The notes below the pieces were generated by a model. It did not search any database, had not been told where the DNA came from, and worked only from the letters and a program-made list of their open reading frames with translations. The translations under genes were made by a program, and so were the position numbers. A DNA stretch of 49,479 nucleotides from Parabacteroides sp. AM08-6 (GTDB taxonomy: Bacteria > Bacteroidota > Bacteroidia > Bacteroidales > Tannerellaceae): assembly GCF_003473295.1 (NCBI RefSeq), contig NZ_QRMP01000026.1, forward strand, positions 6,427-55,905, written 5' to 3'. Numbering within the stretch: the stretch's first letter is position 1; each line of letters begins with the position of its first letter. Shown one piece after another: positions 1,822 through 34,684 of the stretch.

Positions 1822-2109
1822 ATGGAAGAAGTAAAACAATCATTACAACAGAAACAGGAGAACTACAAAGCGGCGTATCTCCAAAAGCGAACAATCTGCA
1901 ACCGTCAAAGTGTGTATATAAGCGGAGAGGTACAGAAACGTATCATGCAGATTTTAGGCGTGATTACAGGCAAACAGGTAAGTATCGGAAATTTCATTGA
2001 TAATGTACTGGAAGAACATTTGAATACGCACAATGATGTTCTTTCGGCTCTCTACCGGGAAGAAATGCAAAAAGGAATATTCAACCAGCCAAAAGAGAAA
2101 AACGTATGA
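1822..2109 (+). CDS. DUF3408 family protein
   Basis: 95 residues, matching the C-terminal core of the DUF3408 protein at 19622-20050: both have a basic segment, then a stretch like QSVYISGEVQKRIMQILGVI, then VSIGNFIDNVLEEHL. The predicted fold resembles ribbon-helix-helix DNA-binding proteins encoded in Bacteroides conjugative elements. It lacks the long charged N-terminus of the other copy. Its stop overlaps the next start (ATGA at 2106-2109), so the two genes are translationally coupled. Function is not experimentally known to me; DNA binding is inferred. Confidence 0.7.
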   Translation: MEEVKQSLQQKQENYKAAYLQKRTICNRQSVYISGEVQKRIMQILGVITGKQVSIGNFIDNVLEEHLNTHNDVLSALYREEMQKGIFNQPKEKNV

Positions 2110-5039: not shown

Positions 5040-5065
5040 ATTAATAGTTATTTAGAATGATTTAT

Positions 5066-6298: not shown

Positions 6299-6618
6299 AT
6301 CTCTGTTTTTTAAGTTGATAAAATTACTTCCAACAGAGTTATTTGAAATGATGCAAGCCACTGACAAACAGACCGTTCAAAGGTCTAATGAGGACAGCGA
6401 AAAGAAAGAAACGAGCCGGTTTGCAGAAGTCCGTCCTAATTCCTTGTTTTGCTGTCTGTTGCCGACCTCTAAAAAGGGTAACGGATAAGCAACGGAACTA
6501 CTGCCTGAATACGCTCCTTTTTTCTTTTTCAAGGGTGGACAGCTAACGACTACAAACGACAAACATACATGATTATCTGCGCTTTACGTTCTATTGCTAA
6601 TGATTACCTTTTCTGTAT
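6299..6618. other. Terminal region of the left element
   Basis: No credible gene. It contains the leftward integrase promoter region (minus-strand TAATTTTA near 6324-6331 is a weak -7 candidate) and several short direct repeats such as ACAAAC and CTGTCTGTTG, which could be integrase arm sites. It ends at the insertion point inside the neighbouring integrase gene. Confidence 0.45.
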
Positions 6619-6628
6619 ATACTTTTGC
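6619..6628 (+). other. Attachment core at the element junction (ATACTTTTGC)
   Basis: The sequence fits the CTnDOT-type core pattern GTANNTTTGC at nine of ten defined or free positions, with A instead of G first. The TTTGC is also the start of the TTT-GCC codons for Phe-Ala in the conserved HTFAT motif of the interrupted integrase gene. This places the crossover in that gene. Confidence 0.6.
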
Positions 6629-6812
6629 CACGACCACCACGCTGTCAAAGGGCGTACCCATTGAAACGGTTTCCAAGATGCTGGGACACACCAATATCGA
6701 AACGACACAAATCTACGCCCGCATCACCAACAGCAAGATTGGCAGCGATATGCAGGGGCTTGACAAGAAGTTTGTCGGCATCGAGAAGATTTACAAGGAA
6801 GCCGCCATGTAA
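6624..6812 (+). pseudogene. C-terminal remnant of the conjugative element's integrase
   Basis: The frame from TTT-GCC encodes FATTTTLSKGVPIETVSKM, then LGHTNIETTQIYARI: the end of the HxxR motif, the LGH box and the catalytic Tyr of a Bacteroides tyrosine recombinase. The preceding frame codes for nothing related. The N-terminal two thirds, including the HxxR Arg, are missing here and are expected on the far side of the inserted left element. As it stands this gene cannot make an active recombinase. A terminator at 6916 follows. Confidence 0.85.
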
Positions 6813-18956: not shown

Positions 18957-19619
18957 TTATAGGAAGTCGTTCATGTCGAACGCTTCGTGTTCCTTGCTTG
19001 TATTGCCAACTTCGGCAGGGACGGCAGCCGCAGCCAGTTCCGCTTCGTTGCGTCCCAGCAGTTCCGCCACCTTTGCCAGCCCGCCGTTGATGTTCTCCAC
19101 CACCGCATCGTAGAGGTTCGTTCCCTCAATCCTTTCCAGCGTCCCGGCGGCTTGCCACTGTTCCGCTTCGGTGGGGTTGTCGGCGTTCGCCGTGCGTACC
19201 GCTTCGCCCAGTTCATCGAAGCTCACGCCCGTAGCCCGCCCGGTATCATCGTCACCGTCCATGTACCCGGCTATTTCCTCGTCCTCGTAGTCGGGTTCGT
19301 CATTCTCGTAACCGGGTGTTTCATCCGCTCCGGGGGCTGCTTCCGAAATGTTTTCTTCCGGCTGTCCGGCAGCCTGCGGCGCAAAAATAGCATCATTTTC
19401 AGCCGCTTGCGGGAGGTGTCCCGATTTGTCCTGCGCTGTCTGAAATTGTCCGCCCTTGTATCGGCTTTCTCCTATCAGCGTGTAACCTGAAACCCCGTTT
19501 CGTGGAAGCGGCGCATCATCCGTTTTGCCCGGTGATGTCTGGCTGTCCGTGTAGCGATACCACAACCACAGGGCGATATAGTACACCGCCAGTCCGGTAA
19601 GTATGAAATAGACTGCCAT
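18957..19619 (-). CDS. TraD-position membrane-anchored protein
   Basis: 220 residues with an N-terminal transmembrane segment (VYFILTGLAVYYIALWLWY) and a long, acidic, low-complexity cytoplasmic region, ending in a helical Asn/Ala-rich part. It occupies the place of the early tra gene between the DUF3408 gene and traE. The 19417-19451 pair of 15-bp motifs lies inside it. I do not assign an enzymatic role. Confidence 0.7.
   Translation of the reverse strand: MAVYFILTGLAVYYIALWLWYRYTDSQTSPGKTDDAPLPRNGVSGYTLIGESRYKGGQFQTAQDKSGHLPQAAENDAIFAPQAAGQPEENISEAAPGADETPGYENDEPDYEDEEIAGYMDGDDDTGRATGVSFDELGEAVRTANADNPTEAEQWQAAGTLERIEGTNLYDAVVENINGGLAKVAELLGRNEAELAAAAVPAEVGNTSKEHEAFDMNDFL
19417..19451 (+). 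promoter_or_regulatory. Paired 15-bp motif inside the traD-like gene
   Basis: TGTCCCGATTTGTCC at 19417 and TGTCTGAAATTGTCC at 19437 start exactly 20 bp apart. The first 24 nt (19417-19440) equal 21085-21108. See the other pairs at 21085 and 26654. Confidence 0.5.
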
Positions 19620-19621
19620 AG

Positions 19622-20050
19622 CTAAAAGGGTTTTTGGAAGTGGCTTTCGTACAGAGCGTTTATCTCGTCTTGGTATTGCTCAAAGTGGCGCAGCAGAATG
19701 TTTTCCACGTAGCTGCTTACCGTCACCTTTCGCCCGCCTATCACCGTCACGATACGCATCAGCTTCTCGTGCGTGGTGCGGCTTACATACAAGGGCTGTC
19801 GGTCTGCCAGTTCCACTTTCTGAAAGTAGGTTTCTCGGTAGTCACCCGAACCGCCCTTGCGCTTGCGGGGTGTCGTTTTCTCCACCCGCACCGTTTCCGT
19901 CTGCCGTCCCTCTTGGGCAGTTCCCGTTTCGCCGCCGGGCTGCGGTGCATCATCCGGCTGGCTTTCCCGCTTGGCGGGTACGCCCTGCGAGATAAGTTCT
20001 TTCATGAAATCCTCGTCTATCTTCGGCATCCCGCCGCTTTGCTTTGCCAT
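19622..20050 (-). CDS. DUF3408 family protein of the transfer operon
   Basis: 142 residues with a disordered, charged N-terminal half and a C-terminal domain with YVSRTTHEKLMRIVTVIG and VSSYVENILLRHFEQY. It is the second gene of the operon, directly after the ParA-like gene (start 1 bp upstream of the parA stop). The family is thought to bind DNA; here it may act with ParA. The shorter relative at 1822 contains only the conserved core. Confidence 0.8.
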   Translation of the reverse strand: MAKQSGGMPKIDEDFMKELISQGVPAKRESQPDDAPQPGGETGTAQEGRQTETVRVEKTTPRKRKGGSGDYRETYFQKVELADRQPLYVSRTTHEKLMRIVTVIGGRKVTVSSYVENILLRHFEQYQDEINALYESHFQKPF

Positions 20051-20051
20051 A

Positions 20052-20819
20052 TCATTGTAATTTGATGTAGTACACTATTTCGGTTATCAGTTCTTCCAAG
20101 TTGCTTCCCCTTACCAGCGGGCGGCTGGCGGGAAAGAGCGTGGAGCGGAACACCGCCTTTTTATCCGCCACCAGTTCCTTTTTGTAGCGTTTGGTGTCGG
20201 GGATAAAGGTTCTCATCAGCGGCAGTTCCAGTTCCTTAATGGTTTTGTCATAGGCAGTGTAAAGGTCTGTTTTCTCCCGACCGTCCACCATGTTCCAAAA
20301 GAGGTACAGCCCGGCAAGTCGGCAGGCTTCATTCTTCACTAATAGCTTTTGGATAGCCATTGCGAACGACAGGCTGCTTTCCAGCACCACCTTGTCGGCT
20401 GAAATGGGGGTGAAGATGTAGTCCATGCCCGCAAGGGAGTTTATCACGCCCTCGCTGTTCACCGTGCCGGGCAGGTCGAAAAAGACAATATCCGGCACGT
20501 GTCCGGCGGCTATATACCCGTCAGCCGTTGCAATCGCCTTTTCAGGTGAACTGCACAATACCGGGTAGGCTTTCTTTCCCAGCTGGGTAAACTGTTCATA
20601 CGCCATGCGCTTGTAATCTTCATCCGCCCCGACCTGCTCGGCATCCCGCTTGCGCATCCCGGCAATGGAGTGTTGCGGGTAGTCGCAATCGACCACCGCC
20701 ACATCGTAACCTTTGAGGTAATAGAGGTAGCTCGCCGCCAGCACGGTAAAGGTGGTTTTGCCGACCCCGCCCTTTTGGGTGGAAAAGGCGACATAAAGGG
20801 GTGTTTTCTCGTTTTCCAT
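20052..20819 (-). CDS. traA: TraA, ParA-type partition ATPase
   Basis: 255 residues from the ATG at 20819 (MENEKTPLYVAFSTQKGGVG). The deviant Walker A motif KGGVGKTTF lies at residues 15-23. Later motifs VVDCDYPQHS and VFFDLPGTV fit the ParA/MinD family. The first gene of the transfer operon, preceded by the TTTCAATCTTG repeat cluster. No ParB homologue is seen next to it, so its partner may be the DUF3408 protein or the repeats themselves. Confidence 0.9.
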   Translation of the reverse strand: MENEKTPLYVAFSTQKGGVGKTTFTVLAASYLYYLKGYDVAVVDCDYPQHSIAGMRKRDAEQVGADEDYKRMAYEQFTQLGKKAYPVLCSSPEKAIATADGYIAAGHVPDIVFFDLPGTVNSEGVINSLAGMDYIFTPISADKVVLESSLSFAMAIQKLLVKNEACRLAGLYLFWNMVDGREKTDLYTAYDKTIKELELPLMRTFIPDTKRYKKELVADKKAVFRSTLFPASRPLVRGSNLEELITEIVYYIKLQ

Positions 20820-20824
20820 ATTTC

Positions 20825-21039
20825 TTTCAATCTTGGTTTGTTTATTTCTTTCAATCAATCTTTCATTCTATCAACCTTTCAATCTTGAAATATTGAAAGA
20901 CTGTTTTATTTCAATCTTGTTTTCTTGTTTTCATTCTTTCTTGGAATATTGAAATCCTGCAATCCTGCTTTCTTGAAATCATGTTTTCAATCATTCTTTC
21001 CTGATTGGAATATTTCTTTCAATCTTGCTTTCAATCTTG
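20825..21039. repeat. TTTCAATCTTG repeat cluster upstream of the tra operon
   Basis: Exact copies of TTTCAATCTTG start at 20825, 20877, 20909, 21017 and 21029. Degenerate copies such as TTTCAATCAAT, TTTCATTCTAT and TTTCAATCATT lie between them. In the transcribed direction the unit is CAAGATTGAAA. It could be a centromere-like site for ParA, an operator array or a special leader RNA. Confidence 0.7.
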
Positions 21040-21084
21040 AAATCCGATGCAAAAAAAAGGAGAAAAAACGTCCCCTGAAAACCT

Positions 21085-21119
21085 TGTCCCGATTTGTCCT
21101 GCGCTGTCCCGATTTGTCC
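21085..21119 (+). promoter_or_regulatory. Paired 15-bp motif between tra and mob operons
   Basis: TGTCCCGATTTGTCC occurs at 21085-21099 and again at 21105-21119, start to start 20 bp. The pair lies between the divergent tra and mob transcription units. The -7-like TTACTTTG at about 21156-21163 lies 37 bp further. Confidence 0.55.
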
Positions 21120-21278
21120 ACCAACTACCTATTTTACAGCATTATAAATCACCGTTACTTTGCAGCGGAGTAACGAACCGCAGGAGGCGGGGTGTAAAAC
21201 CGGGCTGGTGAACGACCGGGCTTGCCGCTTCACGCTAACCCCAATCCGTCACGGACGGATTTCGATTTTCGTCAGAAA

Positions 21279-21372
21279 ATAGCAAGGTGTGTTCTATGGC
21301 ACATAGAACCGTTTTCCGTGCCTGAAAACGCCTTGCCCCTTGCGGGGGTAAAAAATCACTCCGAAGTCGTAA
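21279..21372 (+). other. Candidate oriT of the conjugative element
   Basis: Directly upstream of mobA. Blocks AGCAAGGTGTGTT, CGCCTTGCC and ACTCCGAAGTCGTAA; inverted repeats GCAAGG/CCTTGC, GTTCTATG-GCA-CATAGAAC and CCCC-TTGC-GGGG. The left element has the same block order and hairpin plan with different inner bases, suggesting conserved structure. A further palindrome, AATCCGTC-ACG-GACGGATT, lies at 21243-21261. Confidence 0.7.
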
Positions 21373-21391
21373 TTTTTTAATTCAAAGAAGT

Positions 21392-21814
21392 ATGGAAACA
21401 AGGAAACCCAACAAGGGCGGTCGTCCCGCCCTCGCAGACCCGGCGAAGCACCGCCATGTCCTTTACCTGAACGACCGGGAGAACGCCCGCTTCCTCTCGC
21501 AGTGGGAGCAGTCGGGTGTCACGAGCAAGTCCCGTTTCATCGCCGCCCGGCTGTTCGGCGAGCCGTTCCGGGTGGTAAAAGTGGACAAGTCGGCGGTCGA
21601 GTATTGCGCCCGGCTGACTGAATTTTACGCCCAGTTCCGGGCGGTAGCGGTCAATTACAACCAAGTTGTAAAGGCGTTGCACGGCAATTTTTCCGAGAAA
21701 AAGGCACTGGCTTTTCTCTATAAACTGGAGAAAGCGACCACCGAACTGGCTATGTTGAACCGTCAGGTTATCGACCTGACAAACGAGTGCAGGGAACTAT
21801 GGTTGCCAAAATAA
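21392..21814 (+). CDS. mobA: MobA, oriT-binding relaxosome protein
   Basis: 140 residues. Basic N-terminus (ETRKPNKGGRP), ribbon-helix-helix-like DNA-binding part and the C-terminal helix of the family. It assists the relaxase MobB at oriT. It overlaps mobB by 16 bp. The left-element copy at 882 is a divergent homologue without a relaxase partner. Confidence 0.85.
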   Translation: METRKPNKGGRPALADPAKHRHVLYLNDRENARFLSQWEQSGVTSKSRFIAARLFGEPFRVVKVDKSAVEYCARLTEFYAQFRAVAVNYNQVVKALHGNFSEKKALAFLYKLEKATTELAMLNRQVIDLTNECRELWLPK

Positions 21815-23046
21815 GCACGGGCGGCAATATGTTCGGCGCACTGGCTTACAACCAAAACAAGGTGGACAGCGAAGAAGCAAAGGTGCTTTTCTCCAACCGG
21901 ATGCTGTTAAGCGAGGACGGGAATTTCTCTATCGGCGAGTGTATGCGCAGCTTTGAGATGCAGATGCCCGTCCAGCTATCCACCAAGAAGCCGATACTTC
22001 ATATTTCCATAAACCCGCACCCGGAAGACGTGCTGACCGACCAGCAGCTTTCCGACATTGCCAAAGAGTATATGCGGAAGTTGGGCTATGGCGACCAGCC
22101 TTATTTGGTTTACAAGCATACCGACATCGACCGCCACCATATCCACATCGTTGGCTTGCGGGTGGACGAGAACGGCAAACCGCTGAATGACAGGTTCGAG
22201 CATCGGCGCAGCAAGCAAATCACCCGTGAACTGGAAAAGAAATACGGGCTGCACCCGGCAGAGCGAAAGGAGCGTGCCGAACGCCCGGAACTTAAAAAGG
22301 TGGACTATGCCGCCGGGGACGTGAAGCACCAAATCGGCAATACCGTGAAAGCGGCTTGCTACGGCTACCGCTTCCAGTCGTTCGGGGAGTACAAGGCTTT
22401 GCTTGCCGCTTACAACGTGTGCGCCGAGGAAGTCAAGGGTGAGATAAACGGCAAACCCTATCAGGGCATAGTCTATTCCGCCATGAACGACAAGGGCGAA
22501 AAGACAGGCAACCCGGTAAAGGCTTCCCGCATCGGCAAGTCGGTGGGTTATGAAGCGGTGCAGCGCAGAATGGAGAAATCGGGCGAAGTAATCAGGAATG
22601 GAAAGCTGAAAGAGCGCACCCGGAAAATTGTCGCCGCCACCATGCAGACCGCCCGCAGCCGCAAGGAACTGGAACAGCAGCTAAGGAAGCAGGGTATTGA
22701 CGTGGTATTCCGTCAGAACGACAGCGGGCGCATCTATGGCGTTACGTTCATCGACCATGACAGCCGGGTGGTGCTGAACGGTTCACGCTTGGGAAAGGAG
22801 TATTCGGCGAACGTGTTCAACGAACTGTATTCCGATGAAAGAAAAACGGATATACGGCAGGAACAATCCACGCATCAGGAACAGCCGAACTTCATATCGA
22901 AAGCCGACATCGTTTCGGGCGTGGCTTCCTTAGTAAGTGCGTTCGGTGGATTGTTAGGCGGCGGTGCATCAGGCGGTGACGAGCCGCAAGACATAGCCCG
23001 CCAAAAGAGAAAGAAGAAAAAGAAGCGCACAAGGCGCATCGACTAA
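21799..23046 (+). CDS. mobB: MobB, MOBP-type relaxase
   Basis: 415 residues from the ATG at 21799 (MVAKISTGGNMFGALAYNQ); the GTG further upstream has no family support. The HUH metal-binding motif HTDIDRHHIHIV is at residues 107-118. It nicks one strand at oriT and stays bound through a tyrosine in the N-terminal domain. The C-terminal region is basic and ends in a Lys/Arg-rich tail (KRKKKKKRTRRID). It is followed 17 bp later by the coupling protein gene. Confidence 0.95.
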   Translation: MVAKISTGGNMFGALAYNQNKVDSEEAKVLFSNRMLLSEDGNFSIGECMRSFEMQMPVQLSTKKPILHISINPHPEDVLTDQQLSDIAKEYMRKLGYGDQPYLVYKHTDIDRHHIHIVGLRVDENGKPLNDRFEHRRSKQITRELEKKYGLHPAERKERAERPELKKVDYAAGDVKHQIGNTVKAACYGYRFQSFGEYKALLAAYNVCAEEVKGEINGKPYQGIVYSAMNDKGEKTGNPVKASRIGKSVGYEAVQRRMEKSGEVIRNGKLKERTRKIVAATMQTARSRKELEQQLRKQGIDVVFRQNDSGRIYGVTFIDHDSRVVLNGSRLGKEYSANVFNELYSDERKTDIRQEQSTHQEQPNFISKADIVSGVASLVSAFGGLLGGGASGGDEPQDIARQKRKKKKKRTRRID

Positions 23047-23063
23047 CTTAAAAACATACAATT

Positions 23064-25073
23064 ATGCAGCAAGAAGATGATTTAAGAGGGCTTGCAAGGG
23101 TCATGGACTTTATGCGGGCTGTCAGTATTCTATTCGTGGGAATAAACGTGTACTGGTTCTGTTACTCCACCCTGAAAGAATGGGGAGTAACCTTTGAAGT
23201 GATAGACAAGATACTGTGGAACTTCCAGCGCACCACCGGGTTGTTCTCGTCCGTTCTTTGGACGAAACTTTTTGCGGTGGTGTTCCTCGCCTTGTCGTGT
23301 ATCGGCACTAAGGGCGTGAAAGAGGAAAAGATAACGTGGACGAAGATACATTGCAGCCTTACAGTAGGAGTAATTTTGTTCTTTCTGAACTGGTGGCTGC
23401 TGGAACTGCCACTGCCACATACGGCGGACACCGTGTTTTATATCGCCACGCTGTCGGCGGGCTATATCTGTATGCTCATGGCGGGTACATGGATGTCCCG
23501 GTTGTTGAAAAACAACCTCATGGATGATGTCTTTAATACGGAAAATGAAAGTTTCCAGCAGGAAACAAGGCTTGTCGAGAACGAGTATTCGGTAAATCTG
23601 CCTACCCGGTTCTACTATAAGAAGAAATGGAATAATGGCTGGATAAATGTTGTAAACCCGTTCCGTGCCAGCCTTGTATTGGGAACGCCGGGCAGCGGAA
23701 AATCTTATGCGGTGGTAAACAGTTACATAAAACAGCAAATCGAGAAAGGTTTTGCACTCTATTGTTATGATTACAAATTTCCTGACCTTTCAGAAATCGC
23801 TTACAATCACCTACTTAATCACTTAGACGGTTACAAAGTCAAGCCTAAGTTCTATATTATCAATTTTGACGACCCCCGCAAGAGCCACCGATGCAACCCT
23901 ATAAACGCCAGCTTCATGTCGGACATTGCGGATGCCTACGAAGCCAGCTACACGATAATGCTTAACCTCAATCGCAGTTGGATAAGCAAGCAAGGCGACT
24001 TCTTCGTGGAAAGTCCGATTATCCTGCTTGCAGCCATTATTTGGTACTTGCGCATCTATCAGGGCGGCAAGTATTGCACGTTCCCCCATGCCATTGAACT
24101 GTTGAACAAGAAATATGCCGATGTTTTTACCATTTTGCGCAGCTATCCCGAACTGGAAAACTATCTTTCCCCGTTTGTAGATGCTTGGGAATCAGACGCT
24201 CAAGAGCAGTTGCAGGGTCAAATAGCAAGTGCAAAAATCCCGCTTTCAAGGATGATTTCACCCGCTCTTTACTGGGTAATGACGGGTGATGATTTTTCGC
24301 TGGACATCAACAACCCGAAAGAGCCTAAAATCTTGGTTGTCGGCAACAATCCCGACCGTCAGAACATCTATTCGGCGGCACTGGGATTATATAATTCCCG
24401 TATCGTGAAGCTGATAAACAAGAAAGGTCAGCTTAAAAGTTCGGTGATTATAGACGAGTTGCCAACGATTTATTTTCGTGGGCTTGACAATTTGATTGCG
24501 ACCGCCCGAAGCAACAAGGTTGCGGTTCTGCTGGGCTTTCAGGATTACAGCCAGCTTACCCGTGACTACGGGGACAAGGAAAGCCGGGTAATCCAAAATA
24601 CTGTGGGCAACGTGTTCAGCGGTCAGGTAGTCGGTGAAACGGCAAAAATACTGTCGGAGCGTTTCGGAAAGGTGTTGCAGAAACGGCAGAGCATGACGAT
24701 AAACCAGCGGGAAAAGTCCACCTCGATAAGCACTCAAATGGACAGCCTGATACCCGCCAGTAAAATATCCAACCTCACGCAAGGTATGTTCGTGGGTGCT
24801 GTGGCGGACAACTTCGATGAACGGATAGAGCAGAAGATTTTCCACTGTGAAATCGTGGTGGACAATGAAAAGGTGAAGCGGGAAACCGCCCGTTACGTGA
24901 AGTTGCCGCAGATAATCGACTTCACCGACAAGGACGGCAACGACCGGATGCAGGAGGAGATACAAGCCAATTACGACCGCATCCGTCAGGAAGTCCGTCA
25001 GATTGTCGAGGACGAGATAACCCGGATTAAGAACGACCCGGAGCTATGCCACCTGATAAGAGAGGAAGAATAA
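23064..25073 (+). CDS. mobC: MobC, VirD4/TraG-type coupling protein
   Basis: 669 residues. Several N-terminal hydrophobic segments (residues about 15-35, 65-85 and 90-140), then a hexameric ATPase domain with Walker A LGTPGSGKSYAV at about residues 206-217 and Walker B-like SSVIIDELPTIYF at about 455. It brings the relaxase-DNA complex to the secretion channel. MobC of CTnDOT is this coupling protein, not a relaxosome protein. Confidence 0.95.
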   Translation: MQQEDDLRGLARVMDFMRAVSILFVGINVYWFCYSTLKEWGVTFEVIDKILWNFQRTTGLFSSVLWTKLFAVVFLALSCIGTKGVKEEKITWTKIHCSLTVGVILFFLNWWLLELPLPHTADTVFYIATLSAGYICMLMAGTWMSRLLKNNLMDDVFNTENESFQQETRLVENEYSVNLPTRFYYKKKWNNGWINVVNPFRASLVLGTPGSGKSYAVVNSYIKQQIEKGFALYCYDYKFPDLSEIAYNHLLNHLDGYKVKPKFYIINFDDPRKSHRCNPINASFMSDIADAYEASYTIMLNLNRSWISKQGDFFVESPIILLAAIIWYLRIYQGGKYCTFPHAIELLNKKYADVFTILRSYPELENYLSPFVDAWESDAQEQLQGQIASAKIPLSRMISPALYWVMTGDDFSLDINNPKEPKILVVGNNPDRQNIYSAALGLYNSRIVKLINKKGQLKSSVIIDELPTIYFRGLDNLIATARSNKVAVLLGFQDYSQLTRDYGDKESRVIQNTVGNVFSGQVVGETAKILSERFGKVLQKRQSMTINQREKSTSISTQMDSLIPASKISNLTQGMFVGAVADNFDERIEQKIFHCEIVVDNEKVKRETARYVKLPQIIDFTDKDGNDRMQEEIQANYDRIRQEVRQIVEDEITRIKNDPELCHLIREEE

Positions 25074-25106
25074 CCGATATTCTTTCCTGACAGACAGTAT
25101 TTTTAC

Positions 25107-25114
25107 TAATTTTG
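25107..25114 (+). promoter_or_regulatory. Bacteroides -7 box TAATTTTG upstream of the AlbA_2 gene
   Basis: Exact TAnnTTTG, 12 bp upstream of the start codon region. The short leader suggests that the gene has its own promoter despite following mobC closely. Confidence 0.55.
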
Positions 25115-25125
25115 CAGACAAAGAA

Positions 25126-26478
25126 ATGATTATGAACGAAAACCAAAATACGGAATGGAAAGAAAGCTGGCGTGACGAGTATCTGAAATGGATATGCGGC
25201 TTTGCCAACGCCACAGGCGGCAAGATATATATAGGTATGAATGACGACGGTGAGGTAATTGGCGTTGCCGATGCCGACAAACTGCTGGAAGACATACCGA
25301 ACAAAGTGCGTGACGTGCTGGGTATCATCGTGGACGTGAACCTGCTGGAAGAAAACGGGCTGAAATATATCGAGATTGATGTGCCGCCTTATTCCAATCC
25401 TATCAATTACAAAGGTCAGTACCACTATCGCAGCGGCAGCACGAAACAGGAGTTGAAAGGTGCGGCGTTGAACCGTTTTATCCTGCAACGTACTGGCAGG
25501 CATTGGGACGAATTTCCCATAGAGTGGGCGGGCATAGAAGAACTTTCCACCAGCGCATTAGACCGTTTCCGCAAGGAAGCGGCGAGAAGCGGGCGTGTGG
25601 ACGAAGATGTGTTGAAAGATACTACCGAAAATTTGCTGCACGATTTGCGGCTGATTGACACTCAAACCAACCGCCCGACCCGTGCCGCCTTGCTGTTGTT
25701 CCACCCCGACCCGGAACGCTTTGTAACCGGGGCTTATATCAAGATAGGTTTCTTCCGGGATGATAAGGGTAACTTGGAGTTTCAGGACGAGGTTCACGGC
25801 TCTTTAATGGAACAGGTAGATAAGGCAATGGACTTGATAAAGACCAAATACCTGATTTATCGCATTTCATACGAGGGCATTTCCCGGCGTGAAACACCGC
25901 AGTTCCCGGTGGAAGCTGTCAGGGAGTCACTGATGAATTGTGTGGCACATAAAGACTATGCCAGTGCCGTCCCCATTCAGATTAGTGTGTTCCCCGACCA
26001 TATCACCTTTTGGAACGCCGGGCAGTTGCCGGAAAGCTGGACGACCGAAAAACTTTTTGAAAGCCACCCGTCCTCTCCCTATAACCCGTTAATCGCCAAC
26101 GCCTTTTTCAGAAGCGGGGATATTGAAAGCTGGGGACGTGGTTACAAGCGTATCTTGGAAGCTGTCAGCGCATACAAGTTGTTGCCGCCCAAACTTGAAA
26201 TGTTAAGCGGTCTGATGATTACCTATTATACCGATATACGTTCGCAGTTATTGGCGCAGCGGGTGGATGAAAGGTATATACCCATTATTGAGTATGCAGC
26301 CCAAAATGGAAGCGTTACCAACTCGGACGTTCAAAGAATATTGAACACCAATCGGACTACTGCATATCGTTTGTTGCAACAAATGGAAGCGTGGCTGGAA
26401 ATGCAGGGTGTTACAGGGAAAAGCACTTATTACACAATCAAAGGCTTGCCAAACGCTTCACAAACGCTCCAAAAATAA
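25126..26478 (+). CDS. AlbA_2 (Schlafen-type) ATP-binding regulator-like protein
   Basis: 450 residues. N-terminal AlbA_2 domain (EWKESWRDEYLKWICGFANA, then GGKIYIGMNDDGEV); a middle domain with ATP-binding and HATPase_c_4-like features (ESLMNCVAHKDYA and GDIESWGRGYKRI); and a C-terminal winged helix (NGSVTNSDVQRILNTNRTTA). Proteins of this type act as DNA-binding regulators or in defence. It sits between the mob operon and topB with its own promoter and terminator. The start may be the second ATG at 25132. Role in the element unknown. Confidence 0.8.
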   Translation: MIMNENQNTEWKESWRDEYLKWICGFANATGGKIYIGMNDDGEVIGVADADKLLEDIPNKVRDVLGIIVDVNLLEENGLKYIEIDVPPYSNPINYKGQYHYRSGSTKQELKGAALNRFILQRTGRHWDEFPIEWAGIEELSTSALDRFRKEAARSGRVDEDVLKDTTENLLHDLRLIDTQTNRPTRAALLLFHPDPERFVTGAYIKIGFFRDDKGNLEFQDEVHGSLMEQVDKAMDLIKTKYLIYRISYEGISRRETPQFPVEAVRESLMNCVAHKDYASAVPIQISVFPDHITFWNAGQLPESWTTEKLFESHPSSPYNPLIANAFFRSGDIESWGRGYKRILEAVSAYKLLPPKLEMLSGLMITYYTDIRSQLLAQRVDERYIPIIEYAAQNGSVTNSDVQRILNTNRTTAYRLLQQMEAWLEMQGVTGKSTYYTIKGLPNASQTLQK

Positions 26479-26574
26479 GCTGTATTTCAGTCTTGTTCTA
26501 TGTGTATGGCTCATTATTAGCTTGTTAGCAAGACGGCAAACGCTTCATAAACGCTTCACAAAAGGCTCACCCCA

Positions 26575-26605
26575 AGAGAGTGATTAACTTCGCTCTCTTT
26601 TTTTA
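26575..26605 (+). terminator. Terminator after the AlbA_2 gene
   Basis: AGAGAGTGA and TCGCTCTCT form a 9-bp stem with one T-G pair around TTAACT, followed by a run of T. Confidence 0.8.
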
Positions 26606-26653
26606 TGCCCTTTTCAATTCTGCAACCAATGGTTGCGGAATTTCGTCCCACCC

Positions 26654-26688
26654 GGACAATTTGGGACATCGTAGGACAAATTCGGACA
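26654..26688 (-). promoter_or_regulatory. Paired 15-bp motif upstream of the DUF3945-topB operon
   Basis: GGACAATTTGGGACA at 26654 and GGACAAATTCGGACA at 26674, start to start 20 bp. They are reverse-strand versions of the TGTCCSRAWTTGTCC motif and lie about 40 bp upstream of the -7 box at 26727. Confidence 0.55.
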
Positions 26689-26726: not shown

Positions 26727-26734
26727 TACCTTTG
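26727..26734 (+). promoter_or_regulatory. -7 box TACCTTTG of the DUF3945-topB operon
   Basis: Exact TAnnTTTG, 40 bp before the start codon at 26775. The leader between holds one copy of the ACCACTAAAATTTCAATTA motif. Confidence 0.6.
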
Positions 26735-26774: not shown

Positions 26775-28091
26775 ATGGCAAACAGAATGACCCTGCCCGC
26801 AGAGGGACAGGAAAAAGACGTGCTGCTGGTCTTGGATAAACAGCAGGGAAAGGTGAGTGCCGTTAAGGGTATCGACAAGGACGGCAATTTGCAGACCGTA
26901 CCGCCGACACGTGGCGGCGAGTTCATGCAGGTGGACAGGAACAGCGATGTGTTCAGCAACTTCATTTCCAATTTCTTCCGCAAGTTCCAAGACACTTCCG
27001 GGCTGGAACTTTTCAGTGTCAGGGCTTCCGAGGTGGAGCTACACGCAAAGGCAATCGAGGACAACCACCGCAACCCTACACCGGAGGGCAACAAGCGGGC
27101 TGAAATGTTACGAGTTCCGAAGCCCGACTTCCACGAGTTCAAGCAGGGCTACCGCTTCGACCCGGCAAAAATCGACTGGGAGAACCTGAAAAAAGTCGGC
27201 ATCACCGCCGACACCCTGAAAAACACGAGGGACTTCGACCGGGTGATGCGTGGCTATAAATCACGCAACACCTACACCGTTTCGGGAACGGTGGGCGGCT
27301 TCTACCTCAAACCTACCGATGTAAAACTATCATTCTATCAGGCAAAAGACGGCACGGTAGTACCCAAGCTGCACGGCGTACAGCAGGACGAGAAACTGTT
27401 GCAACGCCCATACAACGGACACGAGTTTACCAAGCAGGAGCAAAGTAACCTGCAATCTATCGGTAACTTAGGAAGCATCGCCCAAATCAAAGACCCGAAA
27501 AGCGGCGAGCCAATCCCCGTGTTCGTCAGCCGGGACAGGTACACGCACGAACTAGAGTATATGCGGGCTGACAAGTGGAAATGCCCCGACACCATTTGCA
27601 ACGTGAAAGTCAGCCCGGAACAGAAAGCCGCCTTTGAAGCTGGGCAAGCGGTGAAAATGGAAAACCTGCAATTCAGGGACGGCACGAAGCGCAGTGCCTA
27701 TTTGCAGGTCAGTGCGGTGGAGCGTGGCTTGGAATTCCTGCCGAGGTCTGCCGTCCAGTTCTTGCAGCAGGGACAACAGCCCGCAGAGCAACAAGTCGCT
27801 GGCATAAAGGACGGCAAGGGCGTTGAGTTCAACGGTCATGTGCAGCCCGGTGCACAGGGCAAATCCCCCGACAAGATACAGCCGAAAGACGTTACCCCCG
27901 CCGCCGAGAGCCGGACGCAGGTAGCGGTCAATTCGGAGGGCAAGACCAACGAAGCCACCAAGCAGGGCAAAGAGCCGCTGAAACAGGGGCAGGACAAGCC
28001 CACCGCCAAGCAGAAAGAGAAGCAGGAGAAAGCGCAGGACAAGAGCCTGAAAGCGGACAAGCCCAAGAAGTCCAAAGGAATGAAAATGTAA
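26775..28091 (+). CDS. DUF3945 family protein
   Basis: 438 residues. N-terminal region (VLLVLDKQQGKVSAVKGIDK) and a central repeated beta-rich part (GTVVPKLHGVQQDEKLLQRP) typical of DUF3945 proteins encoded next to topB in conjugative elements. The C-terminal 100 residues are low complexity, rich in Lys, Gln and Glu. No signal peptide, so it is cytoplasmic. Probably a partner in DNA processing, inferred only from its constant neighbour. Confidence 0.8.
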   Translation: MANRMTLPAEGQEKDVLLVLDKQQGKVSAVKGIDKDGNLQTVPPTRGGEFMQVDRNSDVFSNFISNFFRKFQDTSGLELFSVRASEVELHAKAIEDNHRNPTPEGNKRAEMLRVPKPDFHEFKQGYRFDPAKIDWENLKKVGITADTLKNTRDFDRVMRGYKSRNTYTVSGTVGGFYLKPTDVKLSFYQAKDGTVVPKLHGVQQDEKLLQRPYNGHEFTKQEQSNLQSIGNLGSIAQIKDPKSGEPIPVFVSRDRYTHELEYMRADKWKCPDTICNVKVSPEQKAAFEAGQAVKMENLQFRDGTKRSAYLQVSAVERGLEFLPRSAVQFLQQGQQPAEQQVAGIKDGKGVEFNGHVQPGAQGKSPDKIQPKDVTPAAESRTQVAVNSEGKTNEATKQGKEPLKQGQDKPTAKQKEKQEKAQDKSLKADKPKKSKGMKM

Positions 28092-28117: not shown

Positions 28118-30205
28118 ATGATTGCATTGATAGCAGAGAAGCCCAGCGTGGCAAAAGACATCGCCCGCATCATCGGGGCGACCCAGAGTAATGACGGTTA
28201 TCTTTCCGGCAACGGGTATATGGTGACATGGGCGTTCGGCCACTTAATCCAGCTTGCCATGCCGGAAGCCTACGGCGTGGCGAACTTCCGCAGGGAGAGC
28301 CTGCCCGTACTGCCGACCGATTTCCAATTAATCCCCCGTCAGGTGAAAGCGGAGAAAGGTTACAAGGCAGACCCCGGCGTTCTGAAACAGTTGAAAGTGA
28401 TAAAGGAAGTGTTCGACCAGTGCGACAAGATTATTGTAGCCACCGATGCCGGGCGAGAAGGTGAGTTAATCTTCCGCTATATCTTCCACTACCTGAACTG
28501 CCGCAAGCCCTTTGTCCGCTTGTGGATAAGCAGCCTTACCGACAAGGCAATCCGTGAGGGGTTGGAAAACCTGCAACCGGGCGGGCGTTACGATAACCTC
28601 TACCTCTCTGCCAAGTCCCGTAGTGAAGCGGACTGGCTGATAGGGATAAACGCCACCCAAGCGTTGAGCGTGGCAGCCGGGCAGGGCGTGTTCTCGTTGG
28701 GCAGGGTGCAGACACCCACGCTCGTGATGATATGCAGCCGCTATTTGGAGAACAAGAATTTCGTACCCGCCAAGTTTTGGCAACTCAAAAACCATACCAC
28801 CAACGGGGAAATAAGTTTCACCGCCCAATCGACCGCCAAATGGGAGCAGCAGCCCGAAGCCATAGCCGCCCTGCAACGGGTAAAGGATGCCGGGCAACTT
28901 GTAGTTAAATCCGTTGAGAGGAAAGAAGCCAGCCAAGAACCGCCGCTTTTGTACGACCTTACCACGCTGCAAAAGGAAGCAAACACGAAGCTGGACTTTT
29001 CGGCAGACAAGACGCTTTCCATAGCGCAAAGCCTATATGAAAAGAAAGTGATGTCCTATCCGAGAACCGGAAGCCGCTATATATCTGAGGACGTTTTCGA
29101 TGAAATGCCGGAGCGTGTCGCCCTGCTGAGGCAATACTCCCGCTTTGCCGGGTATGCCGCTGGGCTGGACGGCACACCCCTGAACCGCCGCAGCGTGAAT
29201 GACGGCAAAGTGACCGACCACCACGCCTTAATCATTACCGAGAACCTGCCCGGCGAACTCTCCAAAGACGAACGGGCGGTTTACGAGCTGGTAGCCGGGC
29301 GTATGCTTGAAGCCTTTTCAGGCAAGTGCGTGAAAGACGTTAGCACCGCCGTGCTGTCAGGGGGAGATACCGACTTCACAGTGAAAGGGTCTGTGATGAA
29401 AGAAGCCGGGTGGCGTGCCGTGTTCGGCGAGCAGGAAACGGGCGGTGATGAAGAAGCCGCCAGCCTACCGCCACTCCAAGAGGGCGAAAGCCTGCCGATT
29501 TCCAACGTGGAACTGTTGGAGAAGCAGACCAAGCCGAAACCGCTGCACACGGAAAGCAGCCTGCTTGCCGCAATGGAGAACGCAGGCAGGGAACTGGAAA
29601 ATGCCGAACTGAAAGCCAGCCTGAAAGATGCCGGGATAGGCACGCCCGCCACCCGTGCGGCGATTATCGAAACGCTGTTCGCCCGCCAGTACATCGTGCG
29701 TGAGAAGAAGAACCTTGTGCCTACCGAGAAAGGGCTTGCCGTTTACAAGATTGTCAAGGACAAGAAGATTGCCGATGTCGAAATGACGGGCATGTGGGAA
29801 ACCGCCCTTTCCAAGATAGAAGCGGGCAGCATGGATGCCGACACGTTCCGAAAGGGCATCGAGGTGTACGCCGCCCAAATCACGGCGGAACTGCTTTCGG
29901 TGCAGTTGTCTGTCGCCAATGGCGAAACTTGTTCCTGCCCCAAATGTAATAACGGGCGTATCTTGTTCTACCCAAAAGTGGCGAAGTGTTCCAACGTGGA
30001 CTGCACGCTTACTATATTCCGTAACAAGTGCGACAAGCAACTGACTGACAAGCAGATTGTCGAACTGGTAACGAAACGCAAGACCGGGCTAATCAAGGGG
30101 TTCAAGGGCAAGAACGGCAAGGCTTTCGATGCCTCGCTGGTACTGGACGGGCAGTTCAATGTCGGTTTTTCATTCCCCGAAAAGAAAGCGAAACCGAAGA
30201 AATAG
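28118..30205 (+). CDS. topB: DNA topoisomerase III (TopB family)
   Basis: 695 residues. TOPRIM domain (MIALIAEKPSVAKDIARIIG, ATDAGREGELIFRY), type IA topoisomerase domains and a C-terminal Cys4 zinc region (CPKCNNGRI, CSNVDCTL). The catalytic Tyr is residue 314 in MSYPRTGSRY; the usual Asp after RT is Gly here. The equivalent gene in CTnDOT is exc. It could relax or decatenate DNA during excision or transfer. It ends 96 bp before the converging RibD-like gene. Confidence 0.95.
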   Translation: MIALIAEKPSVAKDIARIIGATQSNDGYLSGNGYMVTWAFGHLIQLAMPEAYGVANFRRESLPVLPTDFQLIPRQVKAEKGYKADPGVLKQLKVIKEVFDQCDKIIVATDAGREGELIFRYIFHYLNCRKPFVRLWISSLTDKAIREGLENLQPGGRYDNLYLSAKSRSEADWLIGINATQALSVAAGQGVFSLGRVQTPTLVMICSRYLENKNFVPAKFWQLKNHTTNGEISFTAQSTAKWEQQPEAIAALQRVKDAGQLVVKSVERKEASQEPPLLYDLTTLQKEANTKLDFSADKTLSIAQSLYEKKVMSYPRTGSRYISEDVFDEMPERVALLRQYSRFAGYAAGLDGTPLNRRSVNDGKVTDHHALIITENLPGELSKDERAVYELVAGRMLEAFSGKCVKDVSTAVLSGGDTDFTVKGSVMKEAGWRAVFGEQETGGDEEAASLPPLQEGESLPISNVELLEKQTKPKPLHTESSLLAAMENAGRELENAELKASLKDAGIGTPATRAAIIETLFARQYIVREKKNLVPTEKGLAVYKIVKDKKIADVEMTGMWETALSKIEAGSMDADTFRKGIEVYAAQITAELLSVQLSVANGETCSCPKCNNGRILFYPKVAKCSNVDCTLTIFRNKCDKQLTDKQIVELVTKRKTGLIKGFKGKNGKAFDASLVLDGQFNVGFSFPEKKAKPKK

Positions 30206-31224: not shown

Positions 31225-33297
31225 CTACGGGCAGCTTGTGTTCCATTGAAGATTATATGACCCGATGACAAAATAGCTTTGGTTCGCCATGTCTTTGGTG
31301 ATGATGTCCCTTTCCCGCATGAAGCGGATATAACTCTTTGCGGTACGTTCCTTGATGTCCAAGACCTGCTGCAACTGCTCGCAAAGGTCTATGTAGGTGA
31401 TGCGTGTCTGTCGTCCAAAAATGTCCCGTGCGACATTCACCAGCTCCCTTTCCTTGCGCTTTTCCTTTTCCTCTCGTGGTTTCTCGCCCTTGTACACGTG
31501 CATCCCGGCTTCCTTGTCCCATGCAAAGAGCATCAGCGGCACGTCCAGCGGGCTTCCGTCCCTTACTTTCAGGGCTTTCACGACCGACTGGGCGGGTTCA
31601 TCGTCTTTTTCAATGGACAGGATAGTAGCCGCCTTGCGTTGCAGTTCGCTACCCAAATGCCCACGCAGCTTCAAGCCGTTTGGGACAAAATGCAATACAC
31701 ACAGAATACACGTGTTATAGATGCCCGCCAACCGATAAAGTTCATCTATCACCGCCACGCTTTCCGCTTCATCGTTGGCACTTTTCACAAGGTCTGCGAT
31801 GCCGTCAATGACGACCAACCGGATGCCGCCGTATTGGTAGTGAAACTTGTCCATGCTCTGTACAATGGCGTTCAGGCGTTCTTTGCGTGACATACCCGTC
31901 AGGCAGAACGCTTTCAGTTCATCGGGTTTGTCCGGCTGTTTGGCACGTGCCAGCAGGTTGCTTACGTTCTTGAACAGTTGCACTTCCGACTGTTCGGTGT
32001 CATAGAGCAATACTGCCTTGTGCCTGCTATTGGCGGTTATCTGTATGCCCAGCGTATCTGTTTCCGCACCAACCGGGCAGATACAGCCCGCCACGATTGC
32101 GGCTACATAATTGCTCTTTCCCGTTCCCTCGCCCCCGGTGATGCCGAACAGGTTGCCTTGTGTTCCTAACGGAACTTCACCCGCCGAAATAATCACTTGC
32201 GCTTTGGCGGGCGGGTTGTTGAAATCTATCTCGCACGATTTAAGCATAATCAATGTGTCGCTATACAGGTTGTCTAAAAATTCGATAAACAGCTTCAGGA
32301 AATCTTCACGGGTGTTCCCGGCTTTGAAGTAGTCGGATATGTCTTTTTCCTCTTTCGTACCCGGAAGCGGGAGCAGCAGGCGTTTCACGCCAAATTCTTC
32401 CAGTAGTTTTTCCTGCTTGCATGAACTCTCCCTGCCCGTCTTGTCCATGTCAAAGAGCAGGACAATGTGCTTGAAGCGGAACGTCAGCCGGTAAACCAGC
32501 GTGGGCGGTATCGTCACCGTTTCGCTGTTGAAGCAGATAGCGTGAAAGCCGTGCGCCGCCAGCGAAAGCACGTCTTTCTCGCCGCCCGTGATGAATAAGG
32601 TATCGCCTTTGGCTGGCAGTTGTTCCAGCCCGAAACAGTAGTTTTCGCCGAAGCTGCCGCCGTAGAGGAAGCGGGGCGTGGAGAATGGGCGGTACAGCTT
32701 AATGTGCTGTTTGCCCTTGTAGCCGTACATGGGTTCTGCCACCGATGATGTGTAGGTGTACGGTTTGCCTTCTGCCGTTTCGCTGTGGTATTCCCGGAGC
32801 GAGCAGACCTTGTAACGTTCCAGCAGTTCGGACGTGATGCCGTACTGTTGCCAGTACACCAGCTCGGCAAGCGGGAACTTCTGTTCCCGGAACTGGTAGG
32901 GCTTGACGGGCTTTTGGGTTGTTTCTTCGGTTTTGTCCGGCACTGCCCGACGGACGGTTACCGGGGGAACGGAAACCGGAGTGCCGGAAGCCAGCCCCAA
33001 GCCCAAATCCCGGTCGATGATTTCCAGTATCTCCACGAAGTCAGCCGCCCGGTTGCAGTCCAGCCCCTTTAACTGCCCCACGAGGAAGAAACAATCGCCG
33101 CTGTAACTGTCGTTGCCGAAATCTTTCATCTTGTATATGCTGCTCCGGCGGTCGAAATAGATGTTGCAGGAAGCCTTGCTGTCCCCGTACAGCGGGTTAA
33201 GGAAGTTGCGACCTATGCGCCAGTTTCCGGGCAGGTAGTGTTTGAACACCGCCAGCCCGTTACTTGTTCTTTCTAAGATTTCTTCTTTCCTTAGCAT
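31225..33297 (-). CDS. Toprim primase-helicase fusion protein
   Basis: 690 residues. N-terminal primase-like zinc-binding part (residues 1-100), Toprim domain with LFITGGEKDVLSLAAHG at about 230-250 and VLLFDMDKTGRE, and a RecA-like ATPase with Walker A GGEGTGKS at about 388 and Walker B LVVIDGIADL at about 490. The end carries a small winged or helical domain. It probably makes primers and unwinds DNA to replace the complementary strand after transfer. It fills the TraP/primase role. Confidence 0.85.
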   Translation of the reverse strand: MLRKEEILERTSNGLAVFKHYLPGNWRIGRNFLNPLYGDSKASCNIYFDRRSSIYKMKDFGNDSYSGDCFFLVGQLKGLDCNRAADFVEILEIIDRDLGLGLASGTPVSVPPVTVRRAVPDKTEETTQKPVKPYQFREQKFPLAELVYWQQYGITSELLERYKVCSLREYHSETAEGKPYTYTSSVAEPMYGYKGKQHIKLYRPFSTPRFLYGGSFGENYCFGLEQLPAKGDTLFITGGEKDVLSLAAHGFHAICFNSETVTIPPTLVYRLTFRFKHIVLLFDMDKTGRESSCKQEKLLEEFGVKRLLLPLPGTKEEKDISDYFKAGNTREDFLKLFIEFLDNLYSDTLIMLKSCEIDFNNPPAKAQVIISAGEVPLGTQGNLFGITGGEGTGKSNYVAAIVAGCICPVGAETDTLGIQITANSRHKAVLLYDTEQSEVQLFKNVSNLLARAKQPDKPDELKAFCLTGMSRKERLNAIVQSMDKFHYQYGGIRLVVIDGIADLVKSANDEAESVAVIDELYRLAGIYNTCILCVLHFVPNGLKLRGHLGSELQRKAATILSIEKDDEPAQSVVKALKVRDGSPLDVPLMLFAWDKEAGMHVYKGEKPREEKEKRKERELVNVARDIFGRQTRITYIDLCEQLQQVLDIKERTAKSYIRFMRERDIITKDMANQSYFVIGSYNLQWNTSCP

Positions 33298-33619
33298 ACA
33301 GTTGGTGGTTGGTTATCAGGTTGTCGATGTTCTCCTTGTTGCTCCTTATCAGGCGTTCTTCCAGCATCCGGCGTATCTCGCTGACCTTGTAGAAGTAGCG
33401 TCCCCTGATGTTGGAATAGGCGATAGTCCCCGATACCCGCAGGCGTTGCAGGGTCTTTTCGCTTATTTTCAGGAACGTGCAGACCTCGTAACTGTCCACC
33501 CACATATTTTCCTCGCTTGTCTTTTCCACTTCCGAATGATTGAATACATAATCGGCAATGGCGGTAATCTTGTTATCCAGTTCCTTGTAGGCTTTGGACT
33601 CGAATGTTATTATTTCCAT
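33260..33619 (-). CDS. Helix-turn-helix excisionase-like protein
   Basis: 119 residues from the ATG at 33619 (MEIITFESKAYKELDNK). Contains the same HTH (WVDSYEVCTFLKISEKTLQR) and wing as the three genes at 465-3077. It overlaps the primase-helicase start by 38 bp. It lies beside rteC, as do Xis genes in CTnDOT. Likely regulates or assists excision. Confidence 0.8.
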   Translation of the reverse strand: MEIITFESKAYKELDNKITAIADYVFNHSEVEKTSEENMWVDSYEVCTFLKISEKTLQRLRVSGTIAYSNIRGRYFYKVSEIRRMLEERLIRSNKENIDNLITNHQLYAKERRNLRKNK

Positions 33620-33783
33620 AATGGTAACTGATTGATTTGCCGCAAAATTGCATCTTTCTGCGAGATAAAAAATACAAGGTTGTACCAACTTGGTTGAAAT
33701 TTTTTTTAGTGCTTTTTGGGGTGGAATTTAAAGGTGCATTATACTTTTTATTCCTATTTATGTGCTTAATTTGTGTAAAAAGA

Positions 33784-33838: not shown

Positions 33839-34684
33839 TTACAAATTATCATCATCCATACGCTTTTGTAGTTGTTCTACTATGAATGTGAAAAAAGCTG
33901 TTCGGTCTTTCTTCCGGTTTTTAAGGCTTAGGTAGGTTCGGTAATAGTCGCCCAGTTCGATGTCAAAAGTATCTTCTACAAATGTCATTACTTCTTTTAT
34001 TGTAGCATTACCATTATTCAGAATTTTAGCAGCAAATAGTCCATATCCCCATTCTATTGCTTCCGATTTCGTCCCAGTCCATTTCAACTTGAAGTTTGAT
34101 AGTTCCGTTTGGGTTTTGTCTGACTGCTGTTTCTTATCCAATAATTGGAGTTGTTGGTTTAGATAGATATTCAGCATATCATTACATAAAATTTTTGCTA
34201 CTTTATAATCAAAGCCTGTCGAAAATGCAGGGTCTTTATCAAGAAAGGAACTATCGGTGCATAGTTGGAAATTCATATATCCCCTTATAAAATAGTAATT
34301 ATCTAAATGGGTTGCTTTTGAACGGTAATACTGGTAGAAGTCTAAATTCCTGTCAAAGAAATATTTCAAGTTCCCTAATTCGCTTGTAAAGTATTCCCTT
34401 TGGGTTTCTGTACTGCCAATAGGACATTTCGTTATGATATTGCATATTTTGTTGTAATAAAGGTATCTGCTTAATATTTCTGGCTTTAATCTCTTGAAGA
34501 AGTCTATTTCGTCTTTTTCATCCTCAAATTTAAAGAGTGATACGTTTGCACGAAGTTCCCAAAATAGTGGTTTGATAAAGTTTACCATATGTGAAGTTTG
34601 TTCCAATGAAAACATATCATCGGAACAAACTTGTGCTATTTCATTCTCTATCTTTTGCAATATATCTTTCGCAAACTGTATCAT
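33839..34684 (-). CDS. rteC: RteC-family regulator
   Basis: 281 residues. RteC domain pattern from the start (MIQFAKDILQKIENEIAQVC) through the C-terminal IELGDYYRTYLSLKNRKKDR. In CTnDOT, RteC binds upstream of the excision operon and activates it. No rteA, rteB or tetQ genes are present in this window, so its inducer is likely different. It starts 8 bp from the end of the cyclophilin-like gene and may be cotranscribed with the cargo operon. Confidence 0.85.
   Translation of the reverse strand: MIQFAKDILQKIENEIAQVCSDDMFSLEQTSHMVNFIKPLFWELRANVSLFKFEDEKDEIDFFKRLKPEILSRYLYYNKICNIITKCPIGSTETQREYFTSELGNLKYFFDRNLDFYQYYRSKATHLDNYYFIRGYMNFQLCTDSSFLDKDPAFSTGFDYKVAKILCNDMLNIYLNQQLQLLDKKQQSDKTQTELSNFKLKWTGTKSEAIEWGYGLFAAKILNNGNATIKEVMTFVEDTFDIELGDYYRTYLSLKNRKKDRTAFFTFIVEQLQKRMDDDNL

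Follow-up and report, generated by a model that had tools for sequence, protein, structure and literature searches.

We describe here three repeat arrays, putative operators, that lie beside the transfer genes in 49,479 nucleotides of a contig from Parabacteroides sp. AM08-6 (NZ_QRMP01000026.1, positions 6,427 to 55,905). This whole stretch, which we call the window, holds an integrative and conjugative element (ICE) of the Bacteroidota. The tra genes of the element run leftward from traA and traB, the mobA-mobB-mobC genes run rightward, and an AlbA_2 gene and the DUF3945-topB genes follow (Table 1). Relatives of the element were found on many contigs of Bacteroides, Phocaeicola and Parabacteroides, the closest plasmid record being from Parabacteroides distasonis (91.6% identity over 81% coverage), and a phage collection searched with the window gave short partial matches only.

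Arrays of 10-bp units in the window

Each of the three sites is 35 bp long and consists of four TGTCC units at exact 10-bp steps. Arrays B and C agree with this pattern at 20/20 unit bases each, and array A, whose units read TGTCC/TGTCC/TGTCT/TGTCC, at 19/20. The maximum score across 200 first-order Markov sequences (one strand each) was 16, and in the rest of the window, among the top 12 matches listed per strand, nothing scored above 14 besides overlapping frames of the three arrays, which also explain all exact same-strand TGTCC pairs at 10, 20 or 30 bp. An earlier note on this DNA had reported three pairs of 15-bp motifs, the members of each pair 20 bp apart. The pairs do lie where it placed them, and positions 19417-19440 are indeed identical to 21085-21108 over 24 bases. 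The spacing also holds, as two 10-bp steps, but the true unit is smaller, and the paired 15-mer has been replaced by the 10-bp unit; the proposed 15-mer consensus fits with a deviation at one base in the second 15-mer of array A. From the suggestion of two dimers bound on one face of the DNA we keep the geometry, refined to four units one helical turn apart, and the gene holding array A, formerly labelled traD-like, has been renamed traC-like.

Array C lies about 5.8 to 9.1 kb from traA across the TGTCC elements, so that the stretch between mobC and array C (25126-26478 in the window), which holds the AlbA_2 gene here and AbiE-like genes in a related locus (L081), resembles a cargo site. From the likely tra promoter to traA, the leader (20820-21045) is packed with TTTCAATC-like repeats, and upstream of traA a period-8 repeat is the best repeat match in many relatives.

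Table 1. Arrays, -7-like elements and genes of the window
Feature	Position	Strand	Basis
Array A, four TGTCC-type units at 10-bp steps, inside the traC-like gene	19417..19451	+	sequence
Array B, four TGTCC units at 10-bp steps, between the divergent tra and mob operons	21085..21119	+	sequence
Array C, four TGTCC units at 10-bp steps, upstream of DUF3945-topB	26654..26688	-	sequence
-7-like element TATTTTTG (6/6), 27 nt from array A, toward the next tra genes	19382..19389	-	same offset in relatives
-7-like element TTTTTTTG (5/6), 27 nt from array B, toward traA-traB	21050..21057	-	
-7-like element TTACTTTG (5/6), other side of array B, toward mobA	21155..21162	+	
-7-like element TACCTTTG (6/6), 38 nt from array C, toward DUF3945-topB	26727..26734	+	
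traC-like gene, contains array A, no Pfam match	18957..19619	-	ORF list, Pfam
traB, DUF3408 protein, 142 aa, possibly ribbon-helix-helix, favoured candidate binder of the arrays	19622..20050	-	Pfam, structure model, association
traA, ParA-type ATPase; listed ORF start TTG, ATG near 20819	20052..20858	-	ORF list, Pfam
mobA (MobC_2 family)	21392..21814	+	Pfam
mobB, relaxase	21787..23046	+	Pfam
mobC, coupling protein	23064..25073	+	Pfam
DUF3945/DUF4099 gene, first gene behind array C	26775..28091	+	Pfam
topB, topoisomerase	28118..30205	+	Pfam
Xis2d-like HTH_17 protein (rival binder candidate)	33260-33688		
RteC (rival binder candidate)	33839-34684		

Array classes and distance to putative promoters in related elements

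Related loci were collected by a TraA-alignment scan, from which the best 80 of at least 462 loci were used (L001-L080); they are not independent, and several are near-identical elements. In L001-L024 the TGTCC array is present at site B in 24/24 loci, at site A in 23/24 (L005 ends before A) and upstream, at site C, in 15/24, site C being often beyond the fetched stretch. A search limited to TGTCC found arrays in just two of the 56 loci L025-L080. When a repeat search without a fixed unit was made, followed by a search for TGNC runs, changed units were found at equivalent places of the distant loci, namely TGGCT, TGACC, mixed TGTCY/TGGCN/TGACY, TGTCT, and TGGCA/TGGCG with 10-11-10 spacing; the general form in the related Bacteroidota loci is four TGNC units at 10-10-10 or 10-11-10 bp. 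Several elements show coordinated change of the variable letters across their sites: L035 has TGGCT at both A and B, L036 has TGGCT-type arrays at all of A, B and C, TGTCT units, three or four in number, occupy A and B in L045 and L049, the 10-11-10 spacing occurs at A and B in L071, L073 and L079, and L074 has TGGCA-type arrays at three places.

Within the 720 nt upstream of traA a score of at least 14/16 was reached on the expected strand in 69/79 loci (L075, too short, was left out), against 8/79 on the opposite strand and 1/237 shuffles. The same score together with a -7 box at 27, 28, 37 or 38 nt gave 134 arrays across the 80 loci, 131 of them within the zones of A, B or C, as against 11 arrays with control box offsets of 22, 23, 32 or 33. 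Among loci with enough sequence, array and box occurred together in 35/75 at A, 66/79 at B and 25/64 at C, the last a broad zone that takes in any opposite-strand array more than 2.5 kb upstream of traA. A DUF3945 match lay behind the C-zone array, in the expected direction, in 22 of 27 loci; L003 ends too early, and no such match was found in L048, L064, L073 and L078.

The published sigma-ABfr consensus has TAnnTTTG at -7 and TTTG near -33, according to the available part of PMC7366714 (the papers cited by accession below were likewise available in part). We searched for TAnnTTTG, at 5/6 or better and reading away from the array, at offsets 0-51 from 31 non-redundant arrays, which were obtained from 135 by dropping similar 5' flanks and chosen without regard to promoters. 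A box of this kind stood at 27/28 or 37/38 nt in 27/27 of the arrays on mobile elements and in 0/4 of the others, and the two preferred distances differ by one helical turn. On the 3' side of the 31 arrays (the mobA side in the case of the window's site B), 14 of the 20 box matches fell at 34-35 nt; on the 5' side, 16 boxes in total were directed toward the array. The -33 TTTG consensus was sought in the array-to-box gap by a logo of the arrays (slightly changed redundancy cut-off; L085, L086, L101, L118/L119 and L121 left out), and none was seen. Because the units change in concert and the distance from array to -7 box is fixed in 27/27, the arrays are very probably operators linked to the promoters of tra, mob and DUF3945-topB.

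Among the arrays tested, those without a -7 box at the usual offsets are from L085, L101 (a tandem repeat), L118 and L121. Two Phocaeicola genomes have an identical TGTCCC-rich repeat, four-fold, in the same chromosomal setting (L085:1545 and L086:9944), adjoining genes that by eye resemble trmE. The TGTCC array at L121:931-965 lies ~450 bp upstream of a DUF3408 ORF, yet has no box at these offsets.

Across 149 genomes of the genus Bacteroides, the TGTCC array (at most 1 mismatch) occurred 54 times, in 19 genomes, and the reversed pattern matched once. By type, 44 of these arrays belong to ICEs, 6 to integrative and mobilizable elements (IMEs) and 4 to others, 24 of the 54 having no returned locus and being typed by array sequence and position, some via other fetched loci. 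Genes of tra/mob or DUF3945-topB stood beside the array in 26 of 30 returned loci; the remaining four are the tandem repeat of L101, an IME (L096, with its relaxase in L122), and L088 and L107, two short-contig loci that share just the IME array sequence. The earlier note had named random abundance of its motif pairs and loss of the spacing in relatives as signs against a regulatory role; since the fixed-spacing scan of the window and of related elements found the spacing kept and the motif rare elsewhere in the genomes, neither applies, and its proposal of a regulator of the element near transfer control points, with binding on one DNA face, gains support.

Another DUF3408 gene, at 1822-2109 (+), belongs to the left-hand element of the window; upstream of it, at 1572-1596 (-), stands a degenerate three-unit array (TGACG, TGTCG, TGGCG at 10 bp) accompanied by a 5/6 -7-like box. 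Judged by eye, the stretches around AGCAAGGTGTG at 1430-1450 and 21280-21345, near both mob regions, are alike, a possible transfer-origin similarity, and the region 3717-6810 holds two ORFs resembling tyrosine recombinases (3717-5039 and 5066-6367) and an apparent recombinase C-terminal fragment (near 6625-6810).

Candidate binders and mobilizable elements

The identity of TraB to the TraB of the window follows the operator class, with 60-97% in TGTCC loci, 53-57% in seven TGGCT loci, 41-50% in mixed loci and at most 39% in the others measured; lower TraB values elsewhere in the analysis stem from cut loci. The outliers are L035 (45%) and L036 (32%) in the TGGCT class, and L045 and L049, in which TGTCT goes with a TraB of 36-37%. 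TraA, in which Pfam shows just the ATPase domains (a CbiA/AAA_31 match from residue 23 on) and which traB directly follows, tracks the operator class as well as TraB. The association extends to 40 loci collected by their DUF3408 gene (25-44% identity), a few of them ICEs or IMEs counted in other sets: array and box were present in 15, against 1 with shifted offsets and 0, 0, 0, 0, 0 and 1 with six altered units, and with the box condition dropped an array was present in 20, against 0 to 2 in controls. The model of the DUF3408 C-terminal domain has an extended stretch and two helices, and its weak structural neighbours, in a search that does not exclude unlisted families, are mostly ribbon-helix-helix proteins, with ParD, NikR, Arc, Reg576 and ArtA among them; the DUF3408 protein may perhaps belong to this fold. 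TraB is the best candidate for the protein that binds the arrays, and among the binders listed in the earlier note the DUF3408 protein is the one we favour; RteC and HTH_17, also listed there, are disfavoured by their identities when set against operator class (see below).

Two types of IME carry arrays. A TGTCC-type array is present in L083, L084, L087, L120 and L122, and L123 and L124 were assigned by the array alone. Besides a relaxase gene, elements of this type hold integrase, HTH_17, VapE-like and primase genes in the loci scanned for them, and their arrays have a 6/6 box at 28 nt, which in L084 points toward HTH_17 genes. No DUF3408 match was found within the fetched stretch of L084, L087, L120 and L122, and the sole match in L083 is ~9.4 kb from its array. 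In the second type (L174, L176, L177, L179, L180 and L183), the arrays consist of TGGCR units, the box stands at 37/38, and the element itself encodes a DUF3408 protein within ~1 kb. Among 40 IME loci drawn from the 48 best relaxase matches (L083, L084, L120, L122, G155:C61, G033:C11, G120 and G130 were omitted), an array was found in 7/11 with DUF3408 and 1/29 without (p = 0.00013), L172, with TGCCA units, being counted under the latter; adding the array-bearing L083, L084, L120 and L122, which had been found through their arrays, gives 7/11 versus 5/33 (p = 0.004). L153, the short G120 locus, is in neither comparison and has a weak TGGC-type array with no DUF3408 match in 3.6 kb. In L155, an IME with a 92% identical relaxase, the -7 box is kept and the array upstream of the HTH_17 gene is, by eye, a degenerate TGTCC/TGTCT.

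A TGTCC ICE was co-resident in 3/5 genomes with TGTCC IMEs versus 13/144 others (p = 0.009; 149 genomes). Of six TGTCC-IME genomes, G007 included, four have a TGTCC-type TraB (66-86%), and no TraB match above 40% was found in G028 and G109. Since four of the five array-bearing IMEs in the group of 33 lack a nearby DUF3408 gene yet carry a TGTCC-type array, our data suggest that they may answer to the regulator of a helper element, as SGI1 does to AcaCD. The same four elements also weaken the argument for TraB as binder, and so does MobA, which splits TGTCC from TGGCT as narrowly as TraB and whose identity overlaps between TGTCC type 2 (59-60%) and the TGGCR loci L052, L071, L073 and L079 (60-61%).

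Proposed mode of action, rival explanations and known systems

With moderate confidence, we propose that a single regulator encoded by the element, most likely TraB, would coordinate the transfer genes of the ICE by acting on the arrays as its operators. Array B would serve traA onward and mob in opposite directions, array A would provide a second start inside the tra operon, and array C would drive DUF3945-topB. One ribbon-helix-helix dimer probably contacts each TGNC unit through the major groove. The dimers would be aligned on one DNA face and end just upstream of the expected position of the -33 box, from where we infer that they would recruit RNA polymerase. TraB, whose gene belongs to the tra operon under the proposed control of array B, may be aided by its ParA partner TraA. 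IMEs with matching arrays, whether they have a DUF3408 gene of their own next to the array or, as in the TGTCC type, none, could fire together with a helper ICE.

This regulator is probably an activator: the preferred distances from array to promoter lie one helical turn apart, and no -33 box was seen. The same two features speak for a promoter that needs help, not one that is blocked, and make it rather unlikely that TraB binds the arrays as a repressor that is released at induction. Repression is known for ArtA of pSK41, a master repressor of the ribbon-helix-helix fold whose six sites take in all three tra promoters (PMC6540685). ArtA is also one of the weak structural neighbours of the DUF3408 domain, and that array B precedes traAB itself would likewise fit repression. 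With several sites on one conjugative element (PMC6540685), ArtA is the closest regulator in fold and role, though it is a repressor, acts on a pseudo-palindromic site and belongs to a staphylococcal plasmid.

Could another regulator of the element, such as the Xis2d-like HTH_17 protein, RteC or MobA, bind the arrays, with DUF3408 as a mere neighbour? The Xis2d protein of CTnDOT binds between the mob and tra genes, and Xis2c, Xis2d and Exc activate tra in that element. In our material, HTH_17 genes flank the arrays in the TGTCC IMEs, and relatives of HTH_17 and RteC were present in 20/20 genomes searched. We regard this explanation as unlikely, given that all three proteins were less concordant with operator class than TraB. 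With relatives matched to elements by how far apart they lie on a contig, RteC identity was 61-65% in five TGTCC elements and 37-40% in another five, overlapping the 37-38% of TGGCT elements, and HTH_17 identity was 72-74% in four TGGCT elements (62% in G013) and 62-63% in two TGTCC elements, so that the divergence of both is out of step with the operator; MobA overlaps across the TGTCC and TGGCR classes as described above. Moreover, the IMEs L157 and L159-L170, with an HTH_17 relative and no DUF3408 match, had no array by the criteria used. CTnDOT (RteABC, Xis2c/Xis2d/Exc) shares related tra genes with our element, and its RteC controls excision and transfer genes (PMC1976400); it differs in that the available text of PMC1976400 describes no DUF3408 operator. 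Among the loci related to the window, L038-L042 may belong to the CTnDOT type.

The arrays could also be primarily centromere-like or overdrive-like, TraB (ParB/VirC2-like) loading on them and TraA (ParA/VirC1-like) positioning the excised element or the relaxosome, with the nearness of promoters reflecting autoregulation. The gene of a ParA-type ATPase directly precedes the small DUF3408 gene, there are several arrays per element, array B adjoins mob, and, as in type Ib ParA/ParB-like partition systems, direct repeats stand upstream of a parAB-like operon, array B being upstream of traA. VirC1 and VirC2 act on overdrive as homologues of ParA and ParB and likewise pair a ParA-type ATPase with a small partner near mobilization genes (PMC8716806). 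The arrays differ from overdrive in being promoter-linked: the 27 non-redundant mobile-element arrays, those of site C and of IMEs included, keep a fixed distance from a -7-like box, which positioning would not need, array A is intragenic and 27 nt from a 6/6 box, and the TGTCC IMEs carry arrays without a TraA match in the loci tested. We find this explanation quite improbable.

That the arrays are inherited similarity without function, or chance, is hardly credible: the close relatives L001-L019 do share long DNA stretches, but in 21 arrays from loci picked as diverse (197 pairs) the spacers are 42% alike, near the 39% of the flank, against 98% for TG.C (partly circular, as the arrays had been found by TG.C), and chance is refuted by the counts upstream of traA.

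For TraB as an activator, SetCD and AcaCD, with SGI1 as follower, would be the closest working analogy. SetCD is an FlhDC-like regulator. In the SXT/R391 ICEs this one regulator has boxes upstream of several transfer promoters, with divergent promoters, one site inside a tra gene and no recognisable -35 motif (PMC4344509), a situation like the one proposed here; in contrast, our candidate is a DUF3408 protein and its box consists of four 10-bp direct repeats near the Bacteroides -7 box. For AcaCD of IncC plasmids, the xis promoter of the mobilizable island SGI1 carries the box of the helper, and ~40 bp are protected, 31 bp upstream of the start, for which a class II pathway was suggested (PMC4605294); AcaCD differs in being FlhDC-like and in its 13-bp inverted-repeat motif, as opposed to direct repeats. 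As in these systems, boxes are found here in IMEs lacking the candidate regulator (L084, L087, L120 and L122, with the distant DUF3408 match of L083 as a further case). TraB, if it is the binder, is not a member of the SetCD/AcaCD family by its sequence, DUF3408 being its sole Pfam match and a relationship to FlhC or FlhD not being found.

More speculatively, DUF3408 proteins may be phylum-wide transfer regulators with an operator code of four TGNC boxes, one per turn, in which the third letter and the 10/11-bp step would set specificity; together with TraA, the arrays would double as promoter switches and as loading sites that move the excised element to the transfer machine, and IMEs would either carry their own DUF3408 or copy the code of the helper. 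We regard this wider proposal as less likely than not. The titles and abstract openings searched, subscription papers on tra control in CTnDOT not being covered, described no DUF3408 function and no such operator. Our results offer a testable function for DUF3408, whose function is given as unknown in Pfam, together with a sequence rule pointing to the transfer promoters of Bacteroidota ICEs, elements that spread genes among gut bacteria, and they predict from the DNA alone which IMEs could respond to which helper.

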